A stretch of 37,450 nt of DNA from assembly GCA_002720535.1 (NCBI GenBank), contig PBIU01000005.1, positions 48,385 through 85,834 on the forward strand. The letters are read 5' to 3'. The stretch's first letter is position 1, and the number at the start of each line of letters is the position of its first letter. The notes under the pieces are model-generated. The model saw only the letters and a program-made list of their open reading frames with translations. It had not been told where the DNA came from and ran no database searches. The stretch is from Candidatus Pelagibacterales bacterium. GTDB lineage: Bacteria; Pseudomonadota; Alphaproteobacteria; TMED109. Made by a program: the position numbers and the translations under genes. This document shows positions 8,252 to 32,657 of this stretch, piece by piece.

Positions 8252-8850
8252 GTAAATTAGAATTATATAATAATAAAACTTATTTTAATGAAGTTTCAAA
8301 ACAAATTTCACTTTTAACAGAAGAAATTGAAAAGATTGACCAGATTTCAAGATTAATTTTTAATGCCAATAAAGAAAAAAGAAAAATTTTAGTTGCAGGT
8401 AATGGAGGATCTTGTGCAGATGCGGAACATTTTGTAGGGGAATTGGTTTGTACTTTTTTAGATAGAAATAGAAGCGCTATATCTGCAATAAATTTATCCT
8501 CTAATAATGCAGCTATAACAGCTTGGTCTAATGATTTTAATTATGAAAGTTATTTAAAAAGACAGGTAGAAGCTTATGGTAATCTTGGAGATATTCTTAT
8601 ACTTCTATCTACTAGTGGTGGCAGTATAAAAAATAAACAATCTATGAACTTAATTCACGCATGTGATCAAGCAAATCATATGGGAATTAAAACTATTTCC
8701 CTGATTGGTAGAGATGGAGGAATATTAAAAGAGAAGTCTGATGATTATATTCTTATTAAATCTGATCAAACTTCAGTAATACAAGAGTGTCATATGTCTA
8801 TCCTTCATGCTATATGTAATAATTTAGATATTTTGATGAAACAAAACTAA
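8248..8850 (+). CDS. SIS-domain sedoheptulose-7-phosphate isomerase-like protein
   Basis: ILVAGNGGSCADAEHFVGELV and LLSTSGGS motifs typical of the GmhA family. Confidence 0.85.
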   Translation: MSKLELYNNKTYFNEVSKQISLLTEEIEKIDQISRLIFNANKEKRKILVAGNGGSCADAEHFVGELVCTFLDRNRSAISAINLSSNNAAITAWSNDFNYESYLKRQVEAYGNLGDILILLSTSGGSIKNKQSMNLIHACDQANHMGIKTISLIGRDGGILKEKSDDYILIKSDQTSVIQECHMSILHAICNNLDILMKQN

Positions 8851-8861
8851 TTATTAATTTA

Positions 8862-8891
8862 TTGACGTTCATTATATGAACATGATATAAT
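8862..8891 (+). promoter_or_regulatory. sigma70-type promoter: TTGACG, 18-bp spacer, TG-extended TATAAT
   Basis: -35 TTGACG 8862-8867; TGA + TATAAT -10 at 8886-8891; upstream of the NeuB-cupin gene. Confidence 0.75.
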
Positions 8892-8906
8892 GTTCATTAT
8901 GTGAAC
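8867..8906. promoter_or_regulatory. two operator-like palindromes GTTCATTATATGAAC (8867-8881) and GTTCATTATGTGAAC (8892-8906), 25 bp centre to centre
   Basis: Read directly; same architecture recurs at 16356-16395. Confidence 0.75.
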
Positions 8907-8940
8907 ATGTAATAATTATATATTTTACTGGAGCAAATAA

Positions 8941-10425
8941 TTGGAAGATTTTAAAAATTTAGTTATTTTTGAAATGGCTAATAACCACCAGGGTAGTTTA
9001 GATCATGCATTAAATATAATTGATGTCTATTCTAAAATTGTAAAAGATAATAATATAAATGCAGCTATTAAATTACAATTTAGAAATATTTCTACATTTA
9101 TTTCTAAAATACAATTAAAAGAAAAAACTAACAAACATATTGATAGATTTCTTGATACTGAATTAACTCAAAAACAATTTTCAATTATATGTAAAAAAAT
9201 AAAAGATTCTGGCATGAAATTGATTATTACGCCATTTGATGAAGTGTCAGTAGATAATGCATTAAAACAAAATGTTGATATTATAAAAATAGCAAGCTGT
9301 AGTGCGGATGATTGGCCATTAATAGAAAAAATAGCTAAAACCAAAAAGTCTGTTATAGCCTCTACCGGAGGTCAAGATATAAAGGCAATCGATAAAATAC
9401 AGAGGTTTTTGGAGCATCGTGAAATTAATTTTGCTTTAATGCATTGTGTTTCTCTCTACCCAGCTTTGCCAAAAGAGGCCAATGTAGGTTTTATTAAAAG
9501 ATTAAAAAGTAGATATCCTAATACGATAATAGGATACTCAGGTCATGAAGCACCTAGTGATCTTATGACAATTGTTTGTGCTATCGGATGTGGAGCGGTT
9601 TTATTTGAAAGGCATATTGGTTTGCCAACGAATCAAATTACTTTGAATAAATATTCTATGGATCCAGAAGAAACAAAAAAATGGATTGATGTAATTAAAA
9701 ACGCACAGAGTATATGTATGGGTGAGACTGATAAAAATATGACCAAAACTGAGTTAACTTCCATTCAAGAATTAGCAAGAGGTACTTTTTGTAAAATTAA
9801 TATTAAAAAAGGACAAAAAATAAATGATAAGGATGTATATTTTGCTTTTCCACTTGAAAATCAGCAATTGAGCTCTGGTAAATTTTTAGCGGGGATTATT
9901 GCTGAAAAAGATTACTTAAAAGATGATGCAATAACTCAAAAGGTTGAAACTAAACAAGCAAATATTATAAGAGAGCATGTTCATTCATACAAAGGAATGT
10001 TTGAAGAAGCAAGTATTGCAGTAGGAAAATATGAAAGTATGGAGTTATCCCATCACTATGGGTTAGAGAATTTAGCAGAAACAGGTGTAATTCTTATTAC
10101 AATCATTAATGATATTTATTGTAAAAAGTTAGTAGGGTTATTAAAAGGTCAAAAACATCCTACTCATAGACATTATAAAAAAGATGAAACTTTTCATGTT
10201 CTTCAAGGAAAAGTTATAGTTGTAAGGAACGATGTTAAACATATTTTAAATAAAGGTGATAAAATAGATATTAGAGCAGGAGATTGGCATTCGTTTGAGT
10301 CAAAAGAAGGTGCTATTTTTGAGGAAGTATCTACAACTAGTATTGTAGGTGATTCTGAATATAAAGATATTAAAATAAATAATTTAGATCCATATGAAAG
10401 AAAAAGTCAAATATACAAATGGTAA
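8941..10425 (+). CDS. NeuB-family nonulosonate synthase with SAF-like region and C-terminal cupin domain
   Basis: FEMANNHQGSLDHA, STGGQDIKAIDK, GYSGHEAP, ARGTFCKINIKKGQKIND (SAF); C-terminal HPTHRHYKKDETFHVLQGKVIVV…GDWHSFE (cupin). TTG start with GGAG at 8930-8933. Confidence 0.8.
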   Translation: MEDFKNLVIFEMANNHQGSLDHALNIIDVYSKIVKDNNINAAIKLQFRNISTFISKIQLKEKTNKHIDRFLDTELTQKQFSIICKKIKDSGMKLIITPFDEVSVDNALKQNVDIIKIASCSADDWPLIEKIAKTKKSVIASTGGQDIKAIDKIQRFLEHREINFALMHCVSLYPALPKEANVGFIKRLKSRYPNTIIGYSGHEAPSDLMTIVCAIGCGAVLFERHIGLPTNQITLNKYSMDPEETKKWIDVIKNAQSICMGETDKNMTKTELTSIQELARGTFCKINIKKGQKINDKDVYFAFPLENQQLSSGKFLAGIIAEKDYLKDDAITQKVETKQANIIREHVHSYKGMFEEASIAVGKYESMELSHHYGLENLAETGVILITIINDIYCKKLVGLLKGQKHPTHRHYKKDETFHVLQGKVIVVRNDVKHILNKGDKIDIRAGDWHSFESKEGAIFEEVSTTSIVGDSEYKDIKINNLDPYERKSQIYKW

Positions 10426-10462
10426 GTTTTTTGGTCAAACAATTATATTTTAATTTAGTGTT

Positions 10463-10858
10463 TTGGTTGATTATATGCAAAGATTCGAATCTCAAATATT
10501 AGAAGAATATAAAAATAATATTAGAAAAAATAATAAAACTCTTGTAGTAGATATTGATGGAGTAGTTGCAAGTATAGTAGAAGATGGAGATTATTTTAAA
10601 GCTAAGCCAATAAAAAAAAACATATCTATTTTAAATAATCTAAAAGAATGTGGTTTAAAAATAATTTATTATACTGCAAGAGGCTCAGTGTCTGGAATAG
10701 ATTGGGAAGATGTTACTAAGGAACAATTTAAAAGATGGAAAATAAAATTTGATGAGCTTAAATTTGGCAAGCCAGCAGCAGATTTATATATAGATGATAA
10801 GGCAGCGACGCCTCCTATTTTATTGGAGTTAGAAAAAGAGATAAAAAATAAATTTTAA
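10463..10858 (+). CDS. HAD-like phosphatase; possible internal ATG start at 10475
   Basis: TLVVDIDGVVAS motif, IIYYTARG, GKPAADLYIDDKA. Confidence 0.7.
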   Translation: MVDYMQRFESQILEEYKNNIRKNNKTLVVDIDGVVASIVEDGDYFKAKPIKKNISILNNLKECGLKIIYYTARGSVSGIDWEDVTKEQFKRWKIKFDELKFGKPAADLYIDDKAATPPILLELEKEIKNKF

Positions 10859-10958
10859 GTCTTATATTATATTTTGCATATAAAAAAATATATTTAAACG
10901 TATATTAGATAAAATTATTCTGACTTTTTCATTAATTTAAACTAGATAAGGATTATAT

Positions 10959-11600
10959 ATGCTAATAAAATCACTTATTACTGCGAGAGGTGGGTCTAAG
11001 TCAGTACCTAAAAAGAATATAATACCTCTTAAAGGTAAACCATTAATTTCCTATTCTATTTTAGCTAGTTTAGAATCAAATGTTTCTGAAACTTGGGTGT
11101 CTACAGAGGATAAAGAGATTAAAAAAATTTCTATGAAATGGGGTGCAAAAGTAATAGATAGACCTAAAGAGTTCGCTACAGATACTATACTAAATGAACC
11201 TTCTCTAATACAATTTGCGGATCAAGAAAAATTTGATTTATTAGTATTTATTCAGCCAACAGGTCCTTTTATAACTTCAAAATATATAAATGAAGGAATA
11301 AATATGATGATTTCAGGTAATTATGATTCTGTTTTTACCGCTACAAAAAAACATTGGGTTCCAACCTGGGATAAAAATATTAATCCAATTGAATGGGATA
11401 TTTATAGTCGTCCTAGAAGACAAGATAGAGATGAATATTATGAAGAAACAGGAATGTTTTATATTACATCTAAAGAAAGGTTGTTAAATACTGGTATAAG
11501 GTATAGTGGGAAAATAGGAATAGTAAAAATACCTTCATATGATAGCTTGCAAATAGATAGTAGGGAAGACCTTGAACTTATTGAAAAAATTATATCTTGA
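10959..11600 (+). CDS. CMP-sugar cytidylyltransferase (NeuA-like)
   Basis: ITARGGSKSVPKKNIIPLKGKPLISYSI, LVFIQPTGPF, EETGMFYITS. Confidence 0.85.
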   Translation: MLIKSLITARGGSKSVPKKNIIPLKGKPLISYSILASLESNVSETWVSTEDKEIKKISMKWGAKVIDRPKEFATDTILNEPSLIQFADQEKFDLLVFIQPTGPFITSKYINEGINMMISGNYDSVFTATKKHWVPTWDKNINPIEWDIYSRPRRQDRDEYYEETGMFYITSKERLLNTGIRYSGKIGIVKIPSYDSLQIDSREDLELIEKIIS

Positions 11601-12862
11601 AAAGTATATTTAAGAATTTAGGCTTTAGAAGAAGTAAAAGTAAATTTATTTATATTTTCTTAAATAATAAAATTATTTCTTTAGATACAATTGTTCCAAT
11701 AATTTTAGATGTTAAATCAAGAAATGAGACAATTAAGGTCATCTATATAACTTTTGACTATAATACTTATGAATTTATTAAATTAAATAAATTATTATTT
11801 AAGGCTATAAAAGAAGTAGGGGATTTAATACTTTTAGGTAGATACAAAAACTCTAAATATTTTAATAATAAAAATATAGGCAAGTATCATTATAAAAGAT
11901 TAAATTTTATAATTCATTTAGCTAAAATACTGCCGCATTTTCTAGCATTAATTTATAATCTTATTACTACTAAAGTAATATTTATACATTTTCGCGCTTT
12001 AAACACGTGGCCTTTAAAGTTACTATACTATTTTAACAAAAATAATACTATTTTTTCCAGTGCAGATAGCTCTGGTTATTCTGAACAAGCGTATAATGCG
12101 GATCGATCTGTCCATGAACAAAGAACTGATCTTAATAAATTTTTGGGCCCCTCACCTAAAGGAAAGAGTGTTATTGCTTTTTCAAATAATTGGCCATTAC
12201 TGAAACATCCAGCATTATTAAATTCTAAAAAATATATTATTAGATCGTCGCATAGTAGAAAAACATGGATAGATTATTTGAAAAGTAATTTTAATAATCT
12301 AATTAAAGAAGAAACTAATGTTGAGTTAACAAACGATTGTTGTTTATTACTTTTGGGACATATTGGGCAAGAGGCATCAGGAGCGATGTTTTTAAAAAAT
12401 AAAAATAGTTGGACAACTTTAGTGGAAGATATTTTAGATATAATTCATGAAGAATGTCCACAATTTAAAATATTAATAAAACCGCACATAATTACGGATA
12501 TGTCTTTATTACAAAGTATTTTAAACAAAAGAAAAAATTTGAATGTAATAATTACTTCTTTGCATCCAGCATTGTTATCTGTAAAAACAAGATTTTCAAT
12601 AGCTTCGCATTATACTACGGCATTTCAGTCTATTCATGATATTGGAGGAATAACTATTGAATATACAGATCAAAAAGAAAAATATAGAAAAAAATTGAAT
12701 TATAAATCCAAAAGACCAGAATATACTACTTATTTTTTTAATAATGATGAGCAAGGTTTTAGAAGCCTTTTAAAAGATATAAGAAATAATAAAGTAAAAT
12801 CAGAACTGAAACGTGGTTATGACGATGATCCTTCAAATTTATTAAATTATTTATCAGAATAA
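11597..12862 (+). CDS. putative surface-polysaccharide glycosyltransferase (GT-B-like)
   Basis: 421-aa ORF with FKILIKPHII and SLHPALLSVKTRFSIASHYTTAFQS, in a sugar gene context; weak family assignment. Confidence 0.5.
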   Translation: MKSIFKNLGFRRSKSKFIYIFLNNKIISLDTIVPIILDVKSRNETIKVIYITFDYNTYEFIKLNKLLFKAIKEVGDLILLGRYKNSKYFNNKNIGKYHYKRLNFIIHLAKILPHFLALIYNLITTKVIFIHFRALNTWPLKLLYYFNKNNTIFSSADSSGYSEQAYNADRSVHEQRTDLNKFLGPSPKGKSVIAFSNNWPLLKHPALLNSKKYIIRSSHSRKTWIDYLKSNFNNLIKEETNVELTNDCCLLLLGHIGQEASGAMFLKNKNSWTTLVEDILDIIHEECPQFKILIKPHIITDMSLLQSILNKRKNLNVIITSLHPALLSVKTRFSIASHYTTAFQSIHDIGGITIEYTDQKEKYRKKLNYKSKRPEYTTYFFNNDEQGFRSLLKDIRNNKVKSELKRGYDDDPSNLLNYLSE

Positions 12863-12870
12863 TTTGTATA

Positions 12871-15646: not shown

Positions 15647-15647
15647 T

Positions 15648-16346: not shown

Positions 16347-16350
16347 TTTA

Positions 16351-16380
16351 TTGACGTTCATAATGTGAACATGCTATCTT
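16351..16380 (+). promoter_or_regulatory. sigma70-type promoter: TTGACG, 18-bp spacer, TG-extended TATCTT
   Basis: -35 16351-16356, -10 16375-16380; same layout as 8862-8891. Confidence 0.7.
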
Positions 16381-16395
16381 GTTCAAAAATTGAAC
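16356..16395. promoter_or_regulatory. two operator-like palindromes GTTCATAATGTGAAC (16356-16370) and GTTCAAAAATTGAAC (16381-16395), 25 bp centre to centre
   Basis: Read directly; identical spacing to the pair at 8867-8906. Confidence 0.75.
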
Positions 16396-16412: not shown

Positions 16413-17030
16413 ATGTCGAATAAAGATAATAAACATAATGATATGACGTTAGAATTACTTTCAGCAGTAGAAGCTGATAGTAGAATAACACAGAGAAGCT
16501 TAGCTAACACGCTAGGTATAGCTCTTGGGCTAACAAATTCATATTTAAAAAAATGTATCGAAAAGGGGCTTGTAAAAATAAAACAAGTCCCCGCTAATAG
16601 ATATGCTTATTACCTTACTCCTAGCGGTTTTACTGAAAAATCTCGTTTGACGGCAGAATATTTAAAGGCATCATTTAGCTTTTATAGACGAGCTAAAACT
16701 GATTTAACAAATATTATAGATAATTGCTATAACAATAATAAATTTAGAATAATTTTATCAGATTTCTCAGAATTATCTGAAATAGCAACAATTATATCAC
16801 TTAGTAGAGATATTGAATTGGTTGGAATAATTAGTAATAATGATAATGGTAAGGTTTTAAATAATATTCCTGTAATAAGAAATATTAAGACTTTTAGGAA
16901 ATTTGATGCTGTAATAATTACTGATATTTATAATACTAAGTCTAGATATGAATATTTATCTAAAATAATTTCTCCAAACAAAATAATGGTTCCTAATTTA
17001 ATATCATTTGAAAATAAAGGAGATAATTAA
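16413..17030 (+). CDS. winged-helix transcriptional regulator (EPS-associated type) with C-terminal Rossmann-like domain; start re-assigned from GTG 16365 to ATG 16413
   Basis: ITQRSLANTLGIALGLTNSYLKKCIEKGLVKIKQVPANRYAYYLTPSGFTEKSRLTAEYL wHTH; the listed 16365 start lies inside the promoter/operator. Confidence 0.75.
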   Translation: MSNKDNKHNDMTLELLSAVEADSRITQRSLANTLGIALGLTNSYLKKCIEKGLVKIKQVPANRYAYYLTPSGFTEKSRLTAEYLKASFSFYRRAKTDLTNIIDNCYNNNKFRIILSDFSELSEIATIISLSRDIELVGIISNNDNGKVLNNIPVIRNIKTFRKFDAVIITDIYNTKSRYEYLSKIISPNKIMVPNLISFENKGDN

Positions 17031-17031: not shown

Positions 17032-17526
17032 ATGAACTGGTATGTTGTAAATACTAAGATAAATAAAGAACAACTGGCTGAAAAACATCTAAATAGGCAA
17101 GGTTTTATTACTTATTTTCCTAAATATAAAAAAATTATAAGTCATGCAAGAAAAGTAACTTCAGTTATTAGACCATTATTTCCTAGGTATATTTTTGTAA
17201 AAATTGATTTATATTCACAAAGATGGGCTTCAATTAATTATACTAATGGAGTTTCCAGATTAGTTTCTATGCATAATATACCAGTAAAAGTATCTAAAGA
17301 GGTAATCAGTAATATAAAATTGCAGGAAGATAATGATGGTTTAATGCATATTTCTTATGCCCAAACTTTTAAAGAAGGTGATGAAGTTAAAATTCATGAC
17401 GGAATATTTTCAGGAGTAACAGGTTTATTTCTAGGTTTGACTGATGATAATAGAGTTAAGGTTTTACTTAATTTATTAGGTAAAGAAATAACTTACTCTT
17501 CAGCAAGTGTTTCAGCTGTTAGATAA
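17032..17526 (+). CDS. NusG paralog (RfaH/UpxY-type specialised elongation factor)
   Basis: MNWYVVNTKINKEQLAEKHLNRQGFITYFPKY…VIRPLFPRYIFVKIDL NGN domain; EGDEVKIHDGIFSGVTGLFLG…RVKVLLNLLGKEITYS KOW-like; AAGGAG Shine-Dalgarno upstream of ATG 17032. Confidence 0.85.
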   Translation: MNWYVVNTKINKEQLAEKHLNRQGFITYFPKYKKIISHARKVTSVIRPLFPRYIFVKIDLYSQRWASINYTNGVSRLVSMHNIPVKVSKEVISNIKLQEDNDGLMHISYAQTFKEGDEVKIHDGIFSGVTGLFLGLTDDNRVKVLLNLLGKEITYSSASVSAVR

Positions 17527-17572
17527 GTTATAAAATTTTAAATTAGATATCTGGATAAGGCTTCACCCAGAG

Positions 17573-17585
17573 TGCGGTAGCTATT
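17573..17585 (+). promoter_or_regulatory. ops-like element (TGCGGTAGCTATT) in the leader after the NusG/RfaH paralog
   Basis: Core GCGGTAGC at 17574-17581 equals the core of E. coli ops (GGCGGTAGCGTG), including the GC-GGTA-GC mini-hairpin. Confidence 0.6.
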
Positions 17586-17624
17586 GTCAAAATTAATTTA
17601 TATTTATTAGTGGAGGATATAGCA

Positions 17625-18320
17625 ATGAAAGTAAAAAATAATAGTAATCAATCAATATTATGTGTAATTGCTCATCCAGATGATGAGGCTTTGGGAGTAG
17701 GCGGCACATTAATTAAGCATATAGATAAAGGTGACGAGGTTAATATTGTTATTTTTTCAATAGGAGAAACTTCTAAAATTAAAAAAAATATTAATCCTGA
17801 TAGAAGACTTGAAAGCGCTGAGAATTGGTCTAAAGAAGTGGGAAGTAATATTTATAGTATTTTGAATTACCCGGATCAAAAACTTGATACAGTTCCAAAA
17901 CTTGAAATTATTCAAACGTTAGAAACGATATTTAAAAAAATAAAACCTGATATAGTTTATACGCATCATGACGGTGACATAAATCATGATCATCAAATAG
18001 TTAGTCATGCGATATTAACTGCTTTGCGACCAATGAATTCTTTTAATTTAAAACCGGAGATAAGAACATTTGAAACAATATCTTCTACGGAACAAGCACC
18101 TAATACTGATAAATATATATTTAAACCTAACTTATATGTAGATATTGAAAATGTATGGGAAAAAAAAATAAAGGCCTTAAAAAATTATAATAATGAATTA
18201 GCTACTTATCCTCATCCTAGGTCTATTAAATCAATAGAAGCGCTCGCTGTTAAAAGAGGCACTGAGTCAGGTTTAAAAAAAGCAGAAGCTTTTTATATTA
18301 TGAGAAAGATTTGGCTATAG
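17625..18320 (+). CDS. PIG-L family deacetylase
   Basis: ILCVIAHPDDEALGVGGTL, YTHHDGDINHDHQIVSHA; GGAGG at 17612-17616 supports ATG 17625. Confidence 0.85.
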   Translation: MKVKNNSNQSILCVIAHPDDEALGVGGTLIKHIDKGDEVNIVIFSIGETSKIKKNINPDRRLESAENWSKEVGSNIYSILNYPDQKLDTVPKLEIIQTLETIFKKIKPDIVYTHHDGDINHDHQIVSHAILTALRPMNSFNLKPEIRTFETISSTEQAPNTDKYIFKPNLYVDIENVWEKKIKALKNYNNELATYPHPRSIKSIEALAVKRGTESGLKKAEAFYIMRKIWL

Positions 18321-18326
18321 CTAATA

Positions 18327-20123
18327 ATGTTTAACTTGCGCAAGATATATTATAAGATATTAGATCTAATATTAATTTATAAGGCCTTAGATGTTGTTTC
18401 TATTAGCAGAACACTATTTTTGATACTTATTATAATATTTGTAATGCTATTTGATGCCTTAAGTATTATGTCTGTAATGCCTTTAGTACAATTTATTCAG
18501 GCAGATCAAAATATTGAGCAGTTTATTGATTCAACAAATTATGGACAATATTTAGTTAACTTTTATAGTTTTTTTACTATTCCTTTAACACTATTAAATT
18601 TATCTATAGTTTTAGTCATATTTGTAATTATGAGACAATTTATGAATATATTTGAAGTTCTGGAGACTGAGAGAACTAGGTTATTAATAGCAAAAGATTT
18701 ATCTATAAATTGTTTTAAAAGTATTATGTTTTCTAAAGCAGAATATATAAGAAGTTTAAAACAAGGACAATTTACAGCATTATGTGAAAGTGAATGTACG
18801 AGGACAAGTTTATTATTTAAAACATTCTTACAATTCATAAGTGCAGGGTTACAAATTTCTGCTTATGCTACAGTTATGTTTTTTGTTGCACCATTTATGA
18901 CTAGTGCTGCTTTATTAATAATAGTATTATTAATTTTTTCATTAATATCTTTTGTTAAGAAAACTCATAAAGCAGGAGAATTAGTGGTTACTCTCAGAAA
19001 AAAATTTTATAATTTTGTAAGTGAAAATTTTTCTTTATGGAGGTTATTTAAATTTGGATCTTTAGTAAATAATGAAATAAATAAGATTAAATATTTGGCA
19101 GAAAATTATGCTGATACTCAACTAAAAATAATCAAATATAGTAATATTTCACGGTTTATTCTAGCTGTTGTTGCAATGTGTCTATGTGTTATATTTTTAA
19201 ATCTATCCGTTAACTATTTTAGTTTTGATTTTGCTAAAATAACCTTATTTTCAATTATATTTATTCGTTTAATACCTTTAGGTACTAGATTAAATGGTTT
19301 AATCAATTCTTTGGTTGCATATGCTCCATCACTTTATGTAATAAATAAAATATTAAATGATTCAATAGAAAATAAAGAAGAATTGATAAAGGGCATTAGA
19401 TTTAAAGGAAATAATACTTCTATAGAGTTTAAAGATGTATGTTTTTCATACTCTAAAAATAAAAATAATAAAATTTTACGTAATATAAATTTGGTGATTC
19501 CTTCTAATAAAGTAACAGCAATAGTTGGTAAATCTGGAGCGGGTAAATCAACATTAATAGATTTATTGCCTAGAATAATTTCTCCTGACTCAGGAGAAAT
19601 TTATATAGGTGGTAAAAATATTAATACTTATTCTTTAGAATCCATTAGAAATAAAATATCTTTTGTCTCTCAAGATACAATCTTATTTGATGGCTCTATA
19701 AAGGCGAATATTAGTTATTACTCTCCTGAATCAAAAAAAGATGATATTATTAAAGCAAGTAAATTATCTGGTGCTCATGAATTTATTAATAAACTACCAA
19801 ATACATATGAATATAATATTGGAGAAAAAGGCCAAAAACTATCAGGAGGTCAAAAGCAAAGATTAATTTTAGCTAGAGCATTTTTATCTAAGTCAAAGAT
19901 TTTAATTTTAGATGAGGCTACTAGTTCTCTTGACCATGTTTCTGAAAAGCACGTGAAGAAAGCTATTAATGAATTTATACATATGAATAATTCAACTATT
20001 ATTATTATAGCTCATAGGCATACAACTATTGAAAATGCAGATTTAATTGTTTATTTGGAAAATGGACAAGTAAAAGATACCGGTAGCCCAAAGACTATAT
20101 TGTCAAAGTATTTAAAAGCATAA
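18327..20123 (+). CDS. ABC exporter, fused TMD-NBD (MsbA/PglK-like)
   Basis: Hydrophobic N-half; Walker A VGKSGAGKST, LSGGQKQRLILARAF signature, Walker B ILILDEATSSLD. Confidence 0.88.
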   Translation: MFNLRKIYYKILDLILIYKALDVVSISRTLFLILIIIFVMLFDALSIMSVMPLVQFIQADQNIEQFIDSTNYGQYLVNFYSFFTIPLTLLNLSIVLVIFVIMRQFMNIFEVLETERTRLLIAKDLSINCFKSIMFSKAEYIRSLKQGQFTALCESECTRTSLLFKTFLQFISAGLQISAYATVMFFVAPFMTSAALLIIVLLIFSLISFVKKTHKAGELVVTLRKKFYNFVSENFSLWRLFKFGSLVNNEINKIKYLAENYADTQLKIIKYSNISRFILAVVAMCLCVIFLNLSVNYFSFDFAKITLFSIIFIRLIPLGTRLNGLINSLVAYAPSLYVINKILNDSIENKEELIKGIRFKGNNTSIEFKDVCFSYSKNKNNKILRNINLVIPSNKVTAIVGKSGAGKSTLIDLLPRIISPDSGEIYIGGKNINTYSLESIRNKISFVSQDTILFDGSIKANISYYSPESKKDDIIKASKLSGAHEFINKLPNTYEYNIGEKGQKLSGGQKQRLILARAFLSKSKILILDEATSSLDHVSEKHVKKAINEFIHMNNSTIIIIAHRHTTIENADLIVYLENGQVKDTGSPKTILSKYLKA

Positions 20124-20153
20124 TGTATTATTAATAAATATATATCTAAAAAA

Positions 20154-21830
20154 GTGAATAATATGGAAAATATATACTATGGGAAATTTATTCCTGGCAA
20201 TATAGAACAATGGAGAATGTATGAAAATGAAGATAATATAATTTGGCTTGCTGGCGATAATCTAGATAAAAAATTTAATCATTTTATTAAATATATTTCT
20301 AAAAATAAAGTTATTAATAATAATATTCTAAAAAAATTTATTCAAGATATTGATGATCACTTTGGATTATTATGTTTTAATAAAAATTGGATATTTGCCT
20401 GTGTAGATTTTACTCGAAGCTATCCTTTATTTTGGAAAAAAATTGAAGGAAAATTTTTATTTTCCCCGCAAGCAATTAATATTTTAGATAAAAATAAGGA
20501 TTTAATAGATGAAGACCAACTTATTGCATTTAGAATGTCTGGTTATACTATTGATAAGGGAAGTCTGTGGAAAAATATTAGGGGTCTTAATGCAGGAGAA
20601 TTTATTTTTATCGAAAATGAAAAAGATTATATAATACAGAATTATTTTTCTTATAGGCCGTGGAAATATGTTAATAAATCATATTCTGAGTTTAAAATTC
20701 AATTAAAATATGAAATAAATAAAATTATAAAAGATACCATAAGTAAGGCTAATGGAAGAACTATAGTAATTCCATTATCTGCAGGTTTAGATTCACGATT
20801 GATAGCATCAGGTTTAAAACATTTTAATTATACTGACGTAAAATGTTTTACTTATGGATTAAAAGATAATTATGAAAGTAAGGCATCTAAAATTATAGCT
20901 AATAAGTTGGGATATGAATGGAAATTTGTAGAAATAAACCAAAAAAAAGCTAAAAATTTTTATTTAAGCCTAAATTATAAAAATTTTATGAATAATAGCC
21001 AAGATGGATGTGCTACATCTACTATCCAAGGTTTATATGCTATAAATAATCTCTTAAAAAATAATTATATAAATATTGATGATGTAGTTATAAATGGAAA
21101 TTCAGGAGATTTTATTTCAGGAGGCCATATACCCAAAAAAAATATTTTAAAAGGTAAAAATATAACTTTATTGTTTGATGAGGTTTTTGAAGAGCACTTC
21201 GAAAAACATTATTCACTTTGGCAAAATTTAAAAAATAAAAAAAATAAAAATATAATTAAGCGCCTACTTTTAAATCAAATTCAAAATAGTATAGAAGAGA
21301 ATGGTATTTATTTAAATACTCATGGAATTGCTGAAACACTAGAATATCAGAATAGACAAACTAAGTATGTTATTAATGCCCAAAGAATTTATGAATTTTA
21401 TAATTTGAAATGGCAACTTCCTTTATGGAATAAATCATTTATAAAATTTTGGGAGAACGTACCTATAGATTTTAAAAAAAATCAAAAGTTGTATAAAGAT
21501 GCTCTTTTAGAATTAAATATGGGAGGAGTTTGGAATGAAGAATATAATGTTAAAAATTATGTATCACCAAAATGGGTAAGAGTATTAAGAGTATTTTTAA
21601 AAGCTTATTTTTTATTTTATGGAAAAAATAAATGGCACAATTTTGAAAAAAAATACTTAGAATATTGGACAGATAATATTTGTGGTCAGAGCATGCTTCC
21701 CTATAAAAATATTATTAAAAGTAAAAATATAAGTAGGCATTATGTTTCTTGGCTTACAATTTTTTCTGAGGATTTAATGTTAAATTCTAATTGGCAACAT
21801 CAAGATAATTATAAAGATTTAGAGATATGA
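20154..21830 (+). CDS. asparagine-synthase-like protein lacking the N-terminal catalytic Cys; possible ATG start at 20163
   Basis: IPLSAGLDSRLIASGL PP-loop; N-terminus MENIYYGKF instead of MCGI…. Confidence 0.75.
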   Translation: MNNMENIYYGKFIPGNIEQWRMYENEDNIIWLAGDNLDKKFNHFIKYISKNKVINNNILKKFIQDIDDHFGLLCFNKNWIFACVDFTRSYPLFWKKIEGKFLFSPQAINILDKNKDLIDEDQLIAFRMSGYTIDKGSLWKNIRGLNAGEFIFIENEKDYIIQNYFSYRPWKYVNKSYSEFKIQLKYEINKIIKDTISKANGRTIVIPLSAGLDSRLIASGLKHFNYTDVKCFTYGLKDNYESKASKIIANKLGYEWKFVEINQKKAKNFYLSLNYKNFMNNSQDGCATSTIQGLYAINNLLKNNYINIDDVVINGNSGDFISGGHIPKKNILKGKNITLLFDEVFEEHFEKHYSLWQNLKNKKNKNIIKRLLLNQIQNSIEENGIYLNTHGIAETLEYQNRQTKYVINAQRIYEFYNLKWQLPLWNKSFIKFWENVPIDFKKNQKLYKDALLELNMGGVWNEEYNVKNYVSPKWVRVLRVFLKAYFLFYGKNKWHNFEKKYLEYWTDNICGQSMLPYKNIIKSKNISRHYVSWLTIFSEDLMLNSNWQHQDNYKDLEI

Positions 21831-23053
21831 ATATTTTATTTGTTACAAGACTCTATTCTGGCTTTGAAAATAGTTTATACAAAAAGCTATGGCAGCCTGA
21901 AGGAGTTCCCACAATCTATAATCTTTTTAATAGATTAAGTATAAATCACAATTTATCTATTATTTTTACGGCAAAAGATTCTGGATCTACATATTCCTCA
22001 AACTGGAAAGAAACTCGGGATAAAAATATTAAATTAAATAACTTTAAAGCTGATATTACAGTACTCTGTGGAACTAAATATTTTTTTAGTTTTATACCTA
22101 GAAAATTAGCAATGGTTATGAGAGATATAAGACAATTATTCCAAATTTTTATGTATGTAAAAAAAATAAAGCCAGATTTAATTTATTGTGATTCAGCTAA
22201 TGTAGTTATTGCATTTGTTTTAACTAAAATTTTTCCTAAAAAACCAATTGTTGTAAGGGTATTAGGGATATGTTCATTTTGGAGATCAATAACTAATAGT
22301 AAGAGAATTGTTCATAGAATATATAAATATGCATTTAAGGGAAAGTTTGCAGCTGTTATAGGGACTCAAGATGGAAGTGGAATAGAATATTGGTTTAAAG
22401 ATACTTTGCATAAAACTATTCCGAGATATGTTTTACTTAATGGAGTGGATAAAGCTCCTAATATAAGGAAATTAAATAAAAAAATTAAGACTATTTTATT
22501 TGTAGGGAGACTAGAAGAATATAAAGGAATTTTTAATTTTTTAAATGCTATTATTCAAATACTTAAAGAAGGTAAACATGAATTAAATATTATTATTATT
22601 GGTGATGGAACTTTGTATGAAAGAGCTATCGGATTATGTCAAGAATCCGGTTTTTTCAATAGCTTTCAATTCTTAAGAAGTATACCTCATAATCAAGTAT
22701 TAAAACATCATACACAATCTGATATATATGTTTCTGCAAATACTGATGGAAATCTTATTAATACTAACCTTGAAGCAATCAGTGCTAATGCATGTATGAT
22801 TATTCCAAAGCCTCAGTATGATAGATTTATAGATATTGAAACATTTAAATTATTAGCTGATGCGGTTAATTATTATGAGGTAAATAATATTAAGGATTTA
22901 AAGTCTAAAATATTATTTTTGTTACAAAATCCAAATAAAATTAATGAGTATAAAAGAAAACTTTCTTCTTATAAATTAAAATTTATTAGAACTTGGAATG
23001 AAAGAATTAATGAGGAAGAAGATATATTAAAAGCAATTGTTATGAAAAAATAG
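21827..23053 (+). CDS. glycosyltransferase, GT4-like
   Basis: TILFVGRLEEYKGIFNFLNAI, YVSANTDGNLINTNLEAISANACMII. Confidence 0.75.
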   Translation: MNILFVTRLYSGFENSLYKKLWQPEGVPTIYNLFNRLSINHNLSIIFTAKDSGSTYSSNWKETRDKNIKLNNFKADITVLCGTKYFFSFIPRKLAMVMRDIRQLFQIFMYVKKIKPDLIYCDSANVVIAFVLTKIFPKKPIVVRVLGICSFWRSITNSKRIVHRIYKYAFKGKFAAVIGTQDGSGIEYWFKDTLHKTIPRYVLLNGVDKAPNIRKLNKKIKTILFVGRLEEYKGIFNFLNAIIQILKEGKHELNIIIIGDGTLYERAIGLCQESGFFNSFQFLRSIPHNQVLKHHTQSDIYVSANTDGNLINTNLEAISANACMIIPKPQYDRFIDIETFKLLADAVNYYEVNNIKDLKSKILFLLQNPNKINEYKRKLSSYKLKFIRTWNERINEEEDILKAIVMKK

Positions 23054-23066
23054 TGAGTAAAATATT

Positions 23067-24896
23067 ATGTGCGGTATATTTGGGTTAATTGGAAATAATA
23101 AAAATAGTTTGGCTGATATTCACAAGCTAGCTAAGTATTCAAAAAGAAGAGGTTCCGACTCTTCTGGAGTATTGCTATTTCAAGATAAGTATTTAGTAGA
23201 GAGGGCTGATTTTAATATATCAAAACTTGTAAAAAAATTAGATATCAATAATCCTGAATTATTTCTTGGAATAGGAAGATTAATTACTAATGATAATGAA
23301 ATGAATCAACCCTTTTTAAGTGATGATATATGTGTTTTCCATAATGGGATTGTAGTAAATGATCATGAAATTTTTGCAGAAGAAAAAATTAAGCGCTTAA
23401 GTTCTCTAGATACAGAAGTTTTCCAAGCGCTGATAAAAAAATATATAAAGAATAACAATTTAAAAGAATTTAAAGAAATATTTTTATCTAAATGTAAGGG
23501 CACATTTTCAGTAGCTATAGCTTTACCAAAATTAGGAAGATTATTACTATTTTCTAATCATGGAAGCTTATATTTAGGGTATAAGGAAAATCTAATAATT
23601 TTTTCTTCAGAAAAACATCATTTATTAAGTCTTCAATGTAAAAATATAATTAACTTAAACAAAAATATTAAGATTATAGATATTCCTAAAGTTAATAATG
23701 AAAAAATTTTATTGAAAGATCATAAAATTAAAAGAAGATTACTTGTTTCTAAAAGAAAATTTTCACATTATAAAGAAAAACTTCTAGATAAAACTAATCC
23801 TCAAGTTCTAAGGTGCAGAAAGTGTGTACTTCCACATACTTTTCCATTTATAAGCTTTAATCAGGAAGGAATATGTAACTATTGCACAAATCATAAAACT
23901 AGGATTGCTTCAAAACCTAAACAGGACTTAGAAAAAATATTAGAGAATTATAGAAAAAAAAGTGGTCCAGATTGTATCGTTCCTTTTTCAGGTGGAAGGG
24001 ATAGTTCATATGCTCTTCATTTAATTGTAAATGAGTTGAATATGAATCCTATTACTTATACATATGATTGGGGTATGACATCGGATATTGGGCGACGAAA
24101 TATTAGTAGAGTATGCTCTCAGCTAGGAGTTGAAAATATTATTGTCTCTGCTGATATAAACAAAAAAAGAAATAATATAAGAAAGAATATTAATGCTTGG
24201 CTAAAAAATCCCCATTTAGGAATGGTAAATATATTTACTGCCGGGGACAAACATTTTTATAAATATATTGAAGATATAAAAAAAGAAACCAACATTAGTC
24301 TTAATTTATGGGGATATAGCCCATTTGAGGTTACACACTTTAAAGCAGGGTTTTTAGGGTATCCTCCAGATTTTCAAACAGCAAGGACCTATACTTATGG
24401 TGCATTAAAACAATTAAGATATCAATTCTTAAGATTAAAAGCTATGTTTAAAAACCCCGCTTATTTTAACCTTTCTTTGTTAGATTCTTTATCAGGGGAA
24501 TATTATCGTAGTTTCAAAAAGAAAGAAGATTATTATTATATATTTGATTATCTTCCATGGGATGAAAAAGTAGTAGATAAAACATTAATCAATGAATATA
24601 AATGGGAGTTAGCTAGAGATACTTCTACTACTTGGAGAATAGGAGATGGTACAGCTGGATTTTATAATTATATATATTATACTATAGCTGGTTTCACGGA
24701 GCATGATACATTTAGAAGTAACCAAGTTAGAGATGGAGTAATATCAAGGGAAGAAGCATTATCATTAGTTGAAATAGAAAATAGGCCTAGATTTGATAAT
24801 ATTGCAGAATACCTAGAAATGTTAGATTTAGATTTTGAAACTGTAATAAATAGAATTAACTCAGTACCAAGGTTATGGTATCAAAATCCTAAATAA
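23067..24896 (+). CDS. class II glutaminase fused to N-acetyl-sugar amidotransferase (PseA/WbpG-like)
   Basis: MCGIFGLIGN (Ntn glutaminase) then LRCRKCVLPHTFPFISFNQEGICNYC…VPFSGGRDSSYALHLI. Confidence 0.8.
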   Translation: MCGIFGLIGNNKNSLADIHKLAKYSKRRGSDSSGVLLFQDKYLVERADFNISKLVKKLDINNPELFLGIGRLITNDNEMNQPFLSDDICVFHNGIVVNDHEIFAEEKIKRLSSLDTEVFQALIKKYIKNNNLKEFKEIFLSKCKGTFSVAIALPKLGRLLLFSNHGSLYLGYKENLIIFSSEKHHLLSLQCKNIINLNKNIKIIDIPKVNNEKILLKDHKIKRRLLVSKRKFSHYKEKLLDKTNPQVLRCRKCVLPHTFPFISFNQEGICNYCTNHKTRIASKPKQDLEKILENYRKKSGPDCIVPFSGGRDSSYALHLIVNELNMNPITYTYDWGMTSDIGRRNISRVCSQLGVENIIVSADINKKRNNIRKNINAWLKNPHLGMVNIFTAGDKHFYKYIEDIKKETNISLNLWGYSPFEVTHFKAGFLGYPPDFQTARTYTYGALKQLRYQFLRLKAMFKNPAYFNLSLLDSLSGEYYRSFKKKEDYYYIFDYLPWDEKVVDKTLINEYKWELARDTSTTWRIGDGTAGFYNYIYYTIAGFTEHDTFRSNQVRDGVISREEALSLVEIENRPRFDNIAEYLEMLDLDFETVINRINSVPRLWYQNPK

Positions 24897-24932
24897 TGCT
24901 AGTTATTGTTAAATTAAAATAGGGAAATAAAT

Positions 24933-25934
24933 TTGGATTTTAATAATAAAAATATATTAATTACCGGAGGAACTGGATCTTTTGGAACTAAATGCGTTGA
25001 AACTCTTTTAAGAGATTATAAACCTAAAAGACTAGTAATCTTTAGTAGAGATGAATTAAAACAATATGAAATGAGTCAAGTCTATTCGGAAGAAAAATTT
25101 TCATGTTTAAGATATTTTTTGGGCGATGTCAGGGATGGGGAAAGAGTAAAAAGAGCATGCGCTAACATTGATATAATTATTCATGCAGCTGCAATGAAAC
25201 ATGTTACTGCATCAGAATATAATCCCACAGAATGTATAGAAACTAATATAAATGGAGCTAAAAATATTATAGATGCATCAATTGAAAATAATATAAAGAA
25301 AGTTATTGCTCTTTCTACAGATAAAGCCGCCAGTCCAATAAATCTGTATGGTGCGACTAAACTGTGTTCAGATAAATTATTTATTGCTGCAAACAATTTG
25401 TCAGGTAAACATAAAACTCGTTTTTCAGTAGTAAGATATGGAAATGTCATAAATTCTAGAGGAAGTGTTATTCCACATTTTAATAAGTTATTGAAAGGTG
25501 GTAAAAAAAAACTGCCATTAACTAATATTAATATGACTCGGTTTGTAATAACCCTGGACCAGGGAGTTCAATTTGTACTAAAGGCATTTACAAATATGAG
25601 CGGAGGTGAAATATTTATTCCTAAAATACCTAGTATGAATATTATAGACTTAGTCACTTGTATGGCAGGAGAAGGGCAGTATAAAGAAGTTGGTATAAGG
25701 CCAGGTGAAAAGTTACATGAGGTTATGATTCCTAGAGAAGAATCTTTGAATTGTATTGAAATGGATGATTATTATATAATCCAACCAATGTTTTCATGGT
25801 GGAACACTGAGCAGTTAAAATTAACAATAGGTAATAATGGAAAAAAGGTTGCCAAATCTTTTGAGTATTCAAGTGACTCAAATACTAATTTCTTAAGTTT
25901 AGATGATATAAAAAGAATTTTAGGTCAAAAATAA
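24933..25934 (+). CDS. pseB: UDP-GlcNAc 4,6-dehydratase (PseB-like), TTG start
   Basis: ILITGGTGSFGTKCVETLL, VIFSRDELKQYEMSQ, AAAMKHVTASEYNPTE, STDKAASPINLYGATK; Pse gene neighbourhood. Confidence 0.8.
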   Translation: MDFNNKNILITGGTGSFGTKCVETLLRDYKPKRLVIFSRDELKQYEMSQVYSEEKFSCLRYFLGDVRDGERVKRACANIDIIIHAAAMKHVTASEYNPTECIETNINGAKNIIDASIENNIKKVIALSTDKAASPINLYGATKLCSDKLFIAANNLSGKHKTRFSVVRYGNVINSRGSVIPHFNKLLKGGKKKLPLTNINMTRFVITLDQGVQFVLKAFTNMSGGEIFIPKIPSMNIIDLVTCMAGEGQYKEVGIRPGEKLHEVMIPREESLNCIEMDDYYIIQPMFSWWNTEQLKLTIGNNGKKVAKSFEYSSDSNTNFLSLDDIKRILGQK

Positions 25935-25967
25935 TATTTTCTTAAATTTTTATCAAAAATTAAATAG

Positions 25968-26948
25968 ATGATGAGATTAGCCATAAGAGTATCTTCTGCG
26001 AGCAGTTCAGGCAGAGGACATTTTGAAAGGTGTTTAGCTATAAGGAGCTATATACCAGAAGGTGTATTTTGGTTTGTAGATTATGAATCAGACTATATAA
26101 AAAATAAAATTTTTAAATCTGATAAAATATTTTATGAAAATGGGAAAAATAAATTTAATATATTAAAAAATAATCTGGAAAAATATTCTATTAATTGTAT
26201 TTTAATTGATAGCTATGCGATTAATAGTAAAGATATTCATAACATAAGTAATAATATACCAATAGTCGTTTTTGATGACCAAAATACTAATACAATAGCT
26301 GACATATTAATATGTCCTCATCCTTTAAATTATAATGATATTCAAGGTAAAAAATATCTTATTGGCCCAAAATATGCACCAATTTCTAATAAATTCAGTT
26401 TTTTTGAAAAAGAAAATAGTAAAGATAAAAAGATTTTAATTTCTTTTGGTGCTTATGATAGTAATGGAATTACATTAAATGTTATTAAGTCAGTTAAAAA
26501 GTTTATTGAAGATAGTAAATATAATTTAAATATAATAATTATTTTAGGAAAGGAATCTCCAATTATTACAAAAGTTCAACATGAAATTCAAAATTTATCT
26601 AATTATAAATTAATACTAGATTGCGATAAAATGGAAAAAATATATAAAAATTGTGATATTGCTATTGGTTCACCAGGTCTATCTTATTTAGAAAGAATGG
26701 CCTCAGGGACACCGAGTATATTGATATCTCAGAATAAATTGCATGATATCTTGATTAATAAATGGGTAGATTTGGGTTGTGGAATAAAAGCTGAAAATTC
26801 TGCTAATTCAATAGAATATACATTAAAAAAATTGATTTTAGATGATAACCTTCACCAGGAATTAATACTTAAGGGTAAAAATACAGTAGATGGCAAAGGT
26901 GCGGAAAGAATTGCAAAAGAAATTATTAATATGGTTAGTATAAAATGA
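25968..26948 (+). CDS. pseG: UDP-sugar hydrolase (PseG-like)
   Basis: RVSSASSSGRGHFERCLAIR, IAIGSPGLSYLERMASGTPSILIS. Confidence 0.78.
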   Translation: MMRLAIRVSSASSSGRGHFERCLAIRSYIPEGVFWFVDYESDYIKNKIFKSDKIFYENGKNKFNILKNNLEKYSINCILIDSYAINSKDIHNISNNIPIVVFDDQNTNTIADILICPHPLNYNDIQGKKYLIGPKYAPISNKFSFFEKENSKDKKILISFGAYDSNGITLNVIKSVKKFIEDSKYNLNIIIILGKESPIITKVQHEIQNLSNYKLILDCDKMEKIYKNCDIAIGSPGLSYLERMASGTPSILISQNKLHDILINKWVDLGCGIKAENSANSIEYTLKKLILDDNLHQELILKGKNTVDGKGAERIAKEIINMVSIK

Positions 26949-28123
26949 TTAAATATCCTTATTCAAAACCTGAGGTAACTAAGTCAGATATTAATGAGGT
27001 AAAAAAGGTATTATTAGGTGGGTATTTGAGCCAAGGAGAAAAAATTCATAAATTTGAATATGAGTTATCAAGATATTTTGATAGTAAAAATGCTATAGTT
27101 TGTAATTCGGGAACAGCAGCATTACATTTAATTTATATGGCTCTAGGAATTGGACCTAAAGCTGGACTCTTAACAACACCTATAACTTTCTTGGCTACTG
27201 CTAATGCAGCAAAAATGTGTAATGCATCAGTATATTTCGCAGATGTAGATCATATATCAGGCCTCTTGACTGCAGATACAATAGAAAAATCTTTAAAAAA
27301 ATATAAAAATAAAATTAAAGTAATTACATTGGTACATTTAGGAGGTAAAATATGCGATTTAGAATCAATATCTAAAGTAGCAAAAAAATATAATTGCTTA
27401 ATTGTAGAAGATGCAAGTCACGCAGCAGGAGCTGAATATTATGATAAAGGTGGAGTTAGTAGTAAGGTAGGAAGTAATAAGTATAGTATTGCAACGGCGT
27501 TTAGTTTTAATGCTATCAAACATGTTGCTATGGGCGAAGGGGGTTGTGTATCAACTAATAATAAAATAATAGCTGATAAAATTAAAAATTTAAGAAGTCA
27601 TGGTATGTTAAGGCAAAAAAATAAATTGCTTTATAAACCTAAAGAACATGCACCTTGGTATTATGAAATGCAAGAGTTAGGTTGGAATTATAGAGCTGAT
27701 GAGACTTCATGTGCATTAGGATTAAGCCAACTTAAAAGATTGCAAAGAGGAATATTTAAAAGGAGAAAAATAGCAAGATATTATTTTAATGAATTAAAAG
27801 ATATAGATTGTATTATTCTACCAGCTAATATTAAAAGTATTAATCAGAGTGTTTGGCATTTATATCCACTACTTATAGATTTTAAAAAAATAGGTATTAG
27901 TCGTAGTCATATGATGAAACAATTATTGAAATATGGAATTCAAACACAAGTTCACTATATACCTTTATTTATGCAACCATATTATAGAAATAGAAATTTT
28001 TTCTTATTTAAAGAATCCATAAAATATTATGATTCTACATTAAGCATCCCTTTATATGTGCAGCTTAATAAAAAAGATATTATTTATATAAGTTCAAAAA
28101 TTAAGAGTGTAATAAATCATTAA
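26945..28123 (+). CDS. pseC: DegT/DnrJ-type aminotransferase (PseC-like)
   Basis: IVCNSGTAALHLIYMAL, VEDASHAAGAEY, ATAFSFNAIKHVAMGEGG. Confidence 0.85.
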   Translation: MIKYPYSKPEVTKSDINEVKKVLLGGYLSQGEKIHKFEYELSRYFDSKNAIVCNSGTAALHLIYMALGIGPKAGLLTTPITFLATANAAKMCNASVYFADVDHISGLLTADTIEKSLKKYKNKIKVITLVHLGGKICDLESISKVAKKYNCLIVEDASHAAGAEYYDKGGVSSKVGSNKYSIATAFSFNAIKHVAMGEGGCVSTNNKIIADKIKNLRSHGMLRQKNKLLYKPKEHAPWYYEMQELGWNYRADETSCALGLSQLKRLQRGIFKRRKIARYYFNELKDIDCIILPANIKSINQSVWHLYPLLIDFKKIGISRSHMMKQLLKYGIQTQVHYIPLFMQPYYRNRNFFLFKESIKYYDSTLSIPLYVQLNKKDIIYISSKIKSVINH

Positions 28124-29921
28124 TCCTAGCGTAGTATTTTGTGATTCATATGAGGCTTTAAATACGCTTTATTCTAGAGGTTTGTCTGAGACTACTAAAA
28201 TAATTACAAAATCCCCACGAATATTAAGCTCTAATAATAATTATGTTCAAGATTTAGAAAAAGATGTAAATAATAAATATAATGAAATTTATAGAAATAA
28301 ATCAAAAGAATATACTTATGAAATTTATAATAGTTTAAAAAAAGAAAAAAATATTTCTGAATATAGCTTGTTATGTTCACAAAAATTTTTGAAATTTTAT
28401 AATCAAATATATTTTGCAAGTTTATTTAGCGATAGTTTTCTAGGAAGAGAATTTTGGGTAATTAAGCCCATTTGTAAAGATAAAAAAATAAATTATGCTA
28501 TTTCTTCTGATATTTATAATATTTTAGAGCTTCACCCAAATTGTAAAATCAAGGAAATTCCAGTCAATTCAACTAATGAAAGATCCGCTCGTGGGGATAG
28601 TAAAGTAAGTCTTTATTCACGCTTACGTATCGTAGGGTATAAAGGCATATTTTGGAATTTTTTGAATTTAATATCTTTTTTATTTAAAAGTAATAAAGTT
28701 AAAATAGCTATAATAAGTAGTAACGAATTAGTGAGAGATATTAGTTTTTATCTTTTATGGAGAAAGAATCTTAATATATTTTACTTTAAGAAATTTTTTA
28801 ATTTTAAAAATAAAATAGTGATTATTAAAAATGAAAATATAATTAAAAATATTAGTGTTATTGTAAATAAAATTTTTCTAAAAGCATTGAGGGACGTACC
28901 ATCAGAAACTATTAGAGAATTATTAATAGCTAAATGGAACATAGAATTAATAGATATTATTAATTCATATAGAACATATAAGCATAATATTAAAAATATT
29001 TTAGATAAAAAAAAGATAGATTTTATTTTAATTGGTTATTTAGATATGCTTAAAGGGCTTGCTCTTCATAATATATGTCAAAATAAAAGTATACCCTTAA
29101 TATCATGCCAACATGGTATTACAAGAGAGATAATATTTGATCCTAACATGAGATCAATATTTTTTGAAACGAGTTTTAGCGACTATTTATTTTGTTATAA
29201 TGATATGTCTAAGAAAGTTACGCAGTCTGCAATGTATTATAATCAAAATAATATTTATAATATCGGTCTTCCTTCTGATTATAGAAACTTTATTTCTAAA
29301 AAAAATAAGAGTAAAGAAATTTGTTATATTTCTACAATTTTATTATCCGGCGGTATTCCAAATTTTATAGCACCTGAAAAGGATATTGAATTAATAAATT
29401 GGGAATTAAAACTGATAAATAAAGTTTTTAAAAAAACTATAAAGACTATAGATTATAAACCTTATCCTGCTATTAGATATGCAGAAAATGACATTAGTAT
29501 TCAGGCTGTTAAGGAAGATAATAATCTAAAATTAGTGGGTACTCATATAGATTTAAGATATATAATTTCAAATTATGGCCTATTAATAACTTCTGGTGCT
29601 ACAAGTACTTTAGGATGGTGTGTTCAATCTAACATTCCTTTAATAATTATAAATAGAAAAGGCTCGCTTTCAATAAAAGAAAGCGTAATTCATGATTTTA
29701 AAAAAGCTTTTTTTATTTTTGATGATTCAGATGAAAATTGGACTAAAAAATTAAAATCATTTTTAGAAAAAGAATATTCAGATATATTAAAGTTATGGAG
29801 AAATAAATTAGATACTAGACCTGCTATTATAAAAAAGTATTTTGGTGATGTTAACTTAAATGCAGGCAAGAATGGTGCAAATATTATTAATAATATAATT
29901 AGAGAACAAAAATTTGGATAA
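28119..29921 (+). CDS. putative surface-carbohydrate transferase (QHG-type GT-B); track start 28182, coding appears to extend to ATT 28119 or ATC 28116
   Basis: LISCQHGITREI, SGATSTLGWCVQSNIPLIII; upstream in-frame INPSVVFCDSYEALNTLYSRGLSETTKIITKSP. Confidence 0.6.
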   Translation: MNPSVVFCDSYEALNTLYSRGLSETTKIITKSPRILSSNNNYVQDLEKDVNNKYNEIYRNKSKEYTYEIYNSLKKEKNISEYSLLCSQKFLKFYNQIYFASLFSDSFLGREFWVIKPICKDKKINYAISSDIYNILELHPNCKIKEIPVNSTNERSARGDSKVSLYSRLRIVGYKGIFWNFLNLISFLFKSNKVKIAIISSNELVRDISFYLLWRKNLNIFYFKKFFNFKNKIVIIKNENIIKNISVIVNKIFLKALRDVPSETIRELLIAKWNIELIDIINSYRTYKHNIKNILDKKKIDFILIGYLDMLKGLALHNICQNKSIPLISCQHGITREIIFDPNMRSIFFETSFSDYLFCYNDMSKKVTQSAMYYNQNNIYNIGLPSDYRNFISKKNKSKEICYISTILLSGGIPNFIAPEKDIELINWELKLINKVFKKTIKTIDYKPYPAIRYAENDISIQAVKEDNNLKLVGTHIDLRYIISNYGLLITSGATSTLGWCVQSNIPLIIINRKGSLSIKESVIHDFKKAFFIFDDSDENWTKKLKSFLEKEYSDILKLWRNKLDTRPAIIKKYFGDVNLNAGKNGANIINNIIREQKFG

Positions 29922-30495
29922 TATTAAAGCTTTAAAAGAAAGTGATATTTATATAAGGCCGTTATTAAGCGAAGATATAACAGTTAGATATCTATCATGG
30001 TTTAAGAACGATATTGTAACTAAGTTTTTAGATGCAAAAAATTTAAAAAAAAATGAAGTTATAAAATACTTAAATTATGGGAAGGAATCAGGTAGTTACT
30101 ATATTTATGCTATATGTCTAAAATCAAATGATATGCATATAGGAAATATTAAAATAGGTCCTATAAAAAGGAAAGATGGAATATCAGATTTAGTTACTGT
30201 TATTGGAGATGATTATTATTGGGGTAAGGGTTTTGCCAAATACGCAATCATTTCTGCAATAGATATTGGTTTTAATCAAGGAGGCATAAGAAAATTTAGT
30301 GCAAGTATTAATTCTTTAAATATTTCATCTTTAAAAGCTTACACATCGGCAGGAATGAAAAAAGAGGCTATTATTCAGAATTATTTTTATAATAATGTAG
30401 AAAATGAAATTATTATTTCGGATAAAATATATGTTGGGTGTGAAAATAAAAAATTTAATATGGATCTTTTGCAGAGTTGGGAGCCTTTTTCCTAG
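29914..30495 (+). CDS. pseH: GNAT N-acetyltransferase (PseH-like)
   Basis: IYIRPLLSEDITVRYLSWFKND, DDYYWGKGFAKYAIISAIDIGF; between pseC and pseI. Confidence 0.75.
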   Translation: MDNIKALKESDIYIRPLLSEDITVRYLSWFKNDIVTKFLDAKNLKKNEVIKYLNYGKESGSYYIYAICLKSNDMHIGNIKIGPIKRKDGISDLVTVIGDDYYWGKGFAKYAIISAIDIGFNQGGIRKFSASINSLNISSLKAYTSAGMKKEAIIQNYFYNNVENEIIISDKIYVGCENKKFNMDLLQSWEPFS

Positions 30496-30519
30496 AGGTT
30501 TTAGGGTATATATCTAATC

Positions 30520-31539: not shown

Positions 31540-31603
31540 TACTATGGCTGAAAATTATACATACTTAAAGCATGGTCTATATTTATAAACTTAGGATATC
31601 TTA

Positions 31604-32656: not shown

Positions 32657-32657
32657 T

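Follow-up and report, generated by a model that had tools for sequence, protein, structure and literature searches.

We found that the GTTCA-N5-TGAAC palindrome is very probably the operator of the regulator encoded at 16413-17030 in the window (the whole analysed stretch of DNA, 37,450 nt), whose dimers would repress two promoters and thereby control glycan genes both directly and via an RfaH-like antiterminator. The original prediction described, at 8862-8906, a TTGACG-18-TATAAT promoter with one operator in the spacer and another right past the -10 element. This layout proved exact, and the 25-bp distance between the operator centres and the GTTCA-N5-TGAAC arms were confirmed by sequence and coordinates. 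The claim of a second such promoter upstream of a regulator gene was also borne out, at a distance of 7,489 bp and with identical geometry, every element being spaced alike in 8862-8906 and 16351-16395. The elements of the two promoters are as follows.

8862..8867, plus strand: -35 element TTGACG of the NeuB-cupin promoter
8867..8881, strandless: operator 1, GTTCATTATATGAAC, within the 18-bp spacer of the NeuB-cupin promoter
8886..8891, plus strand: -10 element TATAAT of the NeuB-cupin promoter, with TG before the hexamer
8892..8906, strandless: operator 2, GTTCATTATGTGAAC, abutting the -10 element and covering the expected start site of the NeuB-cupin promoter
16351..16356, plus strand: -35 element TTGACG of the regulator promoter
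16356..16370, strandless: operator 1, GTTCATAATGTGAAC, of the regulator promoter
16375..16380, plus strand: -10 element TATCTT of the regulator promoter
16381..16395, strandless: operator 2, GTTCAAAAATTGAAC, of the regulator promoter

In the NeuB-cupin promoter, the final base of the -35 hexamer is the opening base of operator 1, and both arms are intact in both operators. This promoter was the top sigma-70 match in the interval 8800-18400 (11 of 12 positions, plus the TG preceding the -10 element). The genome scan proposed with the original prediction was run on the assembly (1,677,714 bases in 9 contigs, 88.6% complete) and did not refute it: all four exact copies of GTTCA-N5-TGAAC lay within the two promoters and none in the remaining genome, compared with a single copy of a backwards-read control pattern. 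Copies with one mismatch were found 37 times genome-wide versus 35 for the control, and the weak copies elsewhere in the genome are thus background. Within the window, six matches with at most one mismatch were observed versus 0.69 expected, a number reached in none of 100 shuffles.

The promoter at 8862-8906 precedes a likely operon (8941-12862), the first gene of which encodes a NeuB-type synthase with a cupin domain fused C-terminally.

8941..10425, plus strand: NeuB-cupin fusion gene with a TTG start, first in the likely operon
10463..12862, plus strand: remaining genes of the likely operon
10463-10858, plus strand: HAD-like phosphatase gene
10959-11600, plus strand: CMP-sugar-type cytidylyltransferase gene
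11597-12862, plus strand: gene for a 421-aa protein without assigned function

Four homologues of the NeuB-cupin fusion (38-51% identity) were found in the same bacterial family. Because the operator was upstream of none of these four, membership of the NeuB-cupin promoter in the regulon seems specific to this lineage, and we infer its regulatory function. The NeuB-cupin leader contained no ops element. A tRNA gene (Rfam RF00005) is located at 8008-8094, its first base being the last base of the pheT frame, the stop codon of which ends at 8008.

The regulator and the genes that follow it form the second locus of interest in the window.

16413..17030, plus strand: regulator, with a winged helix at residues ~8-70, a long helix at 70-107 and a Rossmann-like C-terminal domain at ~108-198
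17032..17526, plus strand: RfaH-like antiterminator, with its ATG at 17032
17550..17571, plus strand: hairpin TCTGG...CCAGA, directly 5' of the ops element
17574..17581, plus strand: ops core GCGGTAGC, glycan-operon leader, between the RfaH-like and LmbE-like genes
17610..35870, plus strand: co-directional glycan genes, presumed RfaH-dependent

The winged helix of the regulator was recognised by Pfam HTH_24 (1.6e-10) and by NCBIfam TIGR04176 (MarR_EPS), the latter at 71.5 bits, which is under the curated cut-off of 88. The TIGR04176 match spans regulator residues 8-101 and positions 2-99 of the 105 in the profile; all 56 two-domain homologues matched this profile, and the E value of the regulator (5e-20) was the best among them. 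The C-terminal domain, modelled alone, gave a Rossmann-like fold with a mean pLDDT of 86.8, and its nearest solved folds were meso-diaminopimelate dehydrogenase and the CoA-binding domain of succinyl-CoA synthetase; fold searches with the regulator models returned no match at E < 1e-3, and a PDB sequence search gave no useful match. The NeuD/PglD family (TIGR03570, positions 2-56) was matched weakly by 6 of the 56 relatives (best E 8e-4), and this match maps to the C-terminal domain of the regulator family. By sequence, the links of this domain to established families are weak, and the ligand cannot be named from such weak fold and sequence matches.

The product of 17032-17526 had RfaH as its best NCBIfam match (120.7 bits, below the cut-off of 144.5) and matched Pfam NusG at 7.8e-21. 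The ops core occurs ten times in the genome; only the copy at 17574 lies in a leader, the other nine being coding or tRNA-like. Downstream genes include those for an LmbE-like protein, an ABC exporter, an AsnB-like protein, a glycosyltransferase and the pseudaminic-type PseB, PseG, PseC, PseH and PseI; the names past 18320 rest on a reading of the translations, and those in 17610-18320 on profile matches too. Homologous loci usually have the operator promoter first, then the regulator, the RfaH-like gene, ops and the glycan genes. An ops element followed the regulator-RfaH module in 33 of 69 loci of the reduced set (0-1 for control words), at the same place in 26 and, in 7 loci with RfaH upstream, nearer at the corresponding distance. 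A hairpin just 5' of ops was frequent, with stems of at least 5 in 56% of cases versus 16% of shuffles. In the JUMPstart sequence of enterobacteria, a hairpin likewise lies just upstream of ops. In related loci, ops takes an extended form that approximates TTTCACCCGGACTGCGGTAGCGTGG and is immediately preceded by a hairpin; no RNA family was recognised by Rfam in the region around 17574 (17550-17583).

Five TTGACG-operator promoters distal to the regulator (L280, L285, L304, L306 and L307) have ops 71-131 bp downstream, and such operator-ops promoters precede glycan genes in genomes G230, G233, G005, G155 and G036, the target in G005 being LmbE-ABC-PseB-PseG-PseC. Since these distal promoters carry ops before glycan genes, the regulator appears to gate the operons as well as the antiterminator. 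Based on these comparisons, the predicted core of the conserved regulon is the regulator-RfaH operon plus the ops-led glycan operons.

We further assessed the operator upstream of regulator homologues. Of the 387 genomes sampled from the class (taken as Alphaproteobacteria), 79 had a homologue, and homologues were also present in gammaproteobacterial records. The upstream set comprised 144 distinct homologue genes, each with at least 200 bp upstream, and sites were counted within ~260 bp; the sampled genomes are mostly metagenome assemblies and mutually related, the homologues are non-independent samples, and the gene calls in the compared loci are simple longest-frame calls. An exact site was found upstream of 115 of the 144 homologues (0.07% in shuffled upstream DNA), a site with at most one mismatch upstream of 132 (0.7% in shuffles) and two or more exact sites upstream of 66. 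After reduction to <60% protein identity, 52 of 72 homologues retained an exact site, and the G+C content of the upstream DNA in this reduced set ranged from 20% to 71%. Among 78 TTGAC[GA]TTCA promoters, TAnnnT was located exactly 18 bp past the -35 element in 58 and at 16-18 bp in 64, versus 1 of 78 for an offset control. Most homologous promoters had operator 1 within the spacer, and most paired sites across homologues were spaced by 21-25, others clustering at 30-35. In several Gammaproteobacteria the gene order is RfaH-regulator, and there the site precedes RfaH.

The operator also varied with the clade of the regulator. GTTCA-N5-TGAAC was found within 220 bp upstream of 12 of 14 single-domain TIGR04176 members above the cut-off. 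In six homologues, the recognition helix is of the SxG..NA[LMI] type; these had ATTCA-N5-TGAAT or half-changed sites and no symmetric G...C site. A clade fused to ATP sulfurylase had GTTCA-N4-TGAAC in 8 of 8 cases. This clade-wise change is the strongest comparative evidence that the regulator proteins recognise the sites. The fusion itself (L331-L336 and L338) occurs in one family of the class, where a MarR_EPS-like winged helix forms an in-frame N-terminal extension of bifunctional ATP sulfurylase/APS kinase; the open frames span ~690-705 aa, and Pfam confirmed the fusion in two members. In L336, for example, the gene occupies 4-1827 on the minus strand, and GTTCA-N4-TGAAC sites lie upstream of the fusion gene; such an enzyme may regulate its own gene.

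Across genomes, the sites follow the regulator. Paired sites were found in 40 of the 387 genomes, and 39 of these 40 encode the regulator, versus 40 of the 347 genomes without pairs (Fisher P ~3e-30, uncorrected for relatedness). The exception, G068 (locus L309), has no regulator, and its site pair precedes a gene with an HxlR-like translation; a similar palindrome may be recognised there by a different family. The form TTGACNTTCA-N5-TGAAC occurred in 44 genomes, of which 3 lack the regulator, all three with C at N, and TTGACGTTCA-N5-TGAAC sites were confined to regulator-bearing genomes. The expectation that paired sites always belong to the regulon held only in part: some pairs without TTGACG were located close to genes for Na/H antiporters, a NIPSNAP protein or a Rieske oxygenase (L110, L111, L105 and L128). 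Because such pairs may belong to other regulators, the regulon claim was built on TTGACG-type sites only. In G399, paired sites precede two Na/H exchanger genes (L110 and L111) and the regulator gene has a single site; the exchanger sites could be further targets or sites of another regulator.

One alternative, chance palindromes in A+T-rich DNA, has a negligible probability and was rejected. It agrees with the background level of one-mismatch sites, but it accounts neither for the excess of exact sites over the reversed control (4 versus 1) nor for two identically spaced pairs, and it is refuted by conservation across species, the operator being kept in G+C-rich genomes. Ownership of the sites by LexA or some other regulator (an HxlR-type protein, for instance) is very unlikely. 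Alphaproteobacterial LexA reads GTTC-N7-GTTC, with the same half-site spacing as GTTCA-N5-TGAAC, the genome encodes a LexA-like protein, and the sole pair-bearing genome without the regulator has its pair before an HxlR-like gene. However, exact copies occur nowhere else in the genome and none precedes lexA, GTTC-N7-GTTC is not enriched (25 versus 28 for the control), and site occurrence follows the presence and the clade of the regulator; the reading of the sites as SOS boxes was rejected.

Two further readings leave the sites with the regulator and are each improbable, although less so than the preceding ones. The regulator might act as an activator, remodelling the promoter from the spacer in the style of the MerR family, and the position of operator 1 in most homologous promoters would suit such a role. 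MerR-type promoters have spacers of 19-20 bp. In contrast, the near-consensus hexamers and 16-18 bp spacers observed here need no remodelling, and operator 2 covers the start region. Alternatively, autocontrol could be the rule and the NeuB-cupin sites a recent copy of the regulator promoter that lacks regulatory importance; the NeuB-cupin homologues of relatives have no sites, and the likeness between the two promoters of the window begins at TTGACG. Yet both NeuB-cupin operators keep both arms, and the recurrence of distal operator-ops promoters in five other genomes makes direct glycan targets a pattern.

The operators, the promoter geometry, the tie to the regulator family and the regulator-RfaH-ops order are supported by the data. 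The originally predicted regulon, with the 16413-17030 protein as its regulator, holds on the operators upstream of homologues, the tracking of the regulator by the sites and the clade-wise motif, and direct binding of the regulator to the sites, deduced from these comparisons, is strongly supported. Repression is likely from the promoter geometry, since the core elements are near consensus, the spacers are normal and an operator lies over the start region, although binding within the spacer might equally be used to activate. In the preferred repression model, one regulator dimer would occupy operator 1 in the spacer, overlapping the -35 element, and a second would sit on operator 2, across the edge of the -10 element and the start site, so that bound dimers would block RNA polymerase at both promoters. 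The regulator promoter would make the regulator and the RfaH-like antiterminator, resulting in autorepression, and its transcription probably continues into the ops-led glycan operon; the promoter at 8862-8906 would make the NeuB-cupin/CMP-sugar genes. Release would follow once the C-terminal Rossmann-like domain binds a small molecule, for which a nucleotide sugar or a dinucleotide is plausible. RfaH would then build up and load at ops (17574), and polymerase would traverse the long operon. The sign of control, the read-through and the ligand are what we infer in this circuit. More tentatively, surface glycans may be under a two-level switch throughout the Proteobacteria, in which a repressor senses a glycan precursor with its enzyme-like domain and, by way of one operator, gates both operon initiation and the RfaH supply; if true, the switch would provide a feed-forward, near all-or-none glycan response.

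The results give a testable operator, clade variants included, to a family whose NCBI name reflects just its association with loci for polysaccharides, and tie this MarR_EPS-type family to RfaH control. The operator makes regulons readable in any genome bearing the family, including those of uncultured marine bacteria. A literature search on the family name or the motif, which reached few subscription journals, found no account of the operator or the circuit. The neighbourhood itself is partly known already, as the portion of PMC7593976 consulted notes that RfaH cluster CL4 adjoins an HTH regulator; that portion states the recruitment of RfaH-like proteins apart from the E. coli one as open, and no description of an operator was found in it.

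Compared with known systems, the regulator shares the winged-helix domain of TIGR04176 over nearly the full model and the operator found before single-domain members of that family (the 12 of 14 above, a criterion of this analysis that lies outside the published definition), but it is ~100 residues longer, adds a Rossmann-like C-terminal domain and accompanies RfaH. The domain order, winged helix then Rossmann, is that of Rex-type repressors, and RSP (3wg9) was among the weak whole-model fold matches (E 6e-3, TM 0.34); the regulator differs from Rex in its operator, its targets and the absence of a sequence match, no Rex model being among the Pfam/NCBIfam matches listed for the regulator and its homologues. 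The N-terminal Rossmann-like domain of NeuD/PglD is weakly similar to the C-terminal domain of the regulator family, whereas the regulator has no acetyltransferase part and the similarity is too weak for ligand assignment. As in autorepressing MarR-like and other winged-helix regulators, a palindromic operator overlaps the regulator's own core promoter. As in the RfaH/ops (JUMPstart) system, an ops core with an upstream hairpin lies in the operon leader, and here the RfaH-like gene adjoins the regulator gene. In contrast to that system, the RfaH-like gene is predicted to have an operator promoter dedicated to it and subject to autoregulation, and in some target operons the operator and ops stand in series.
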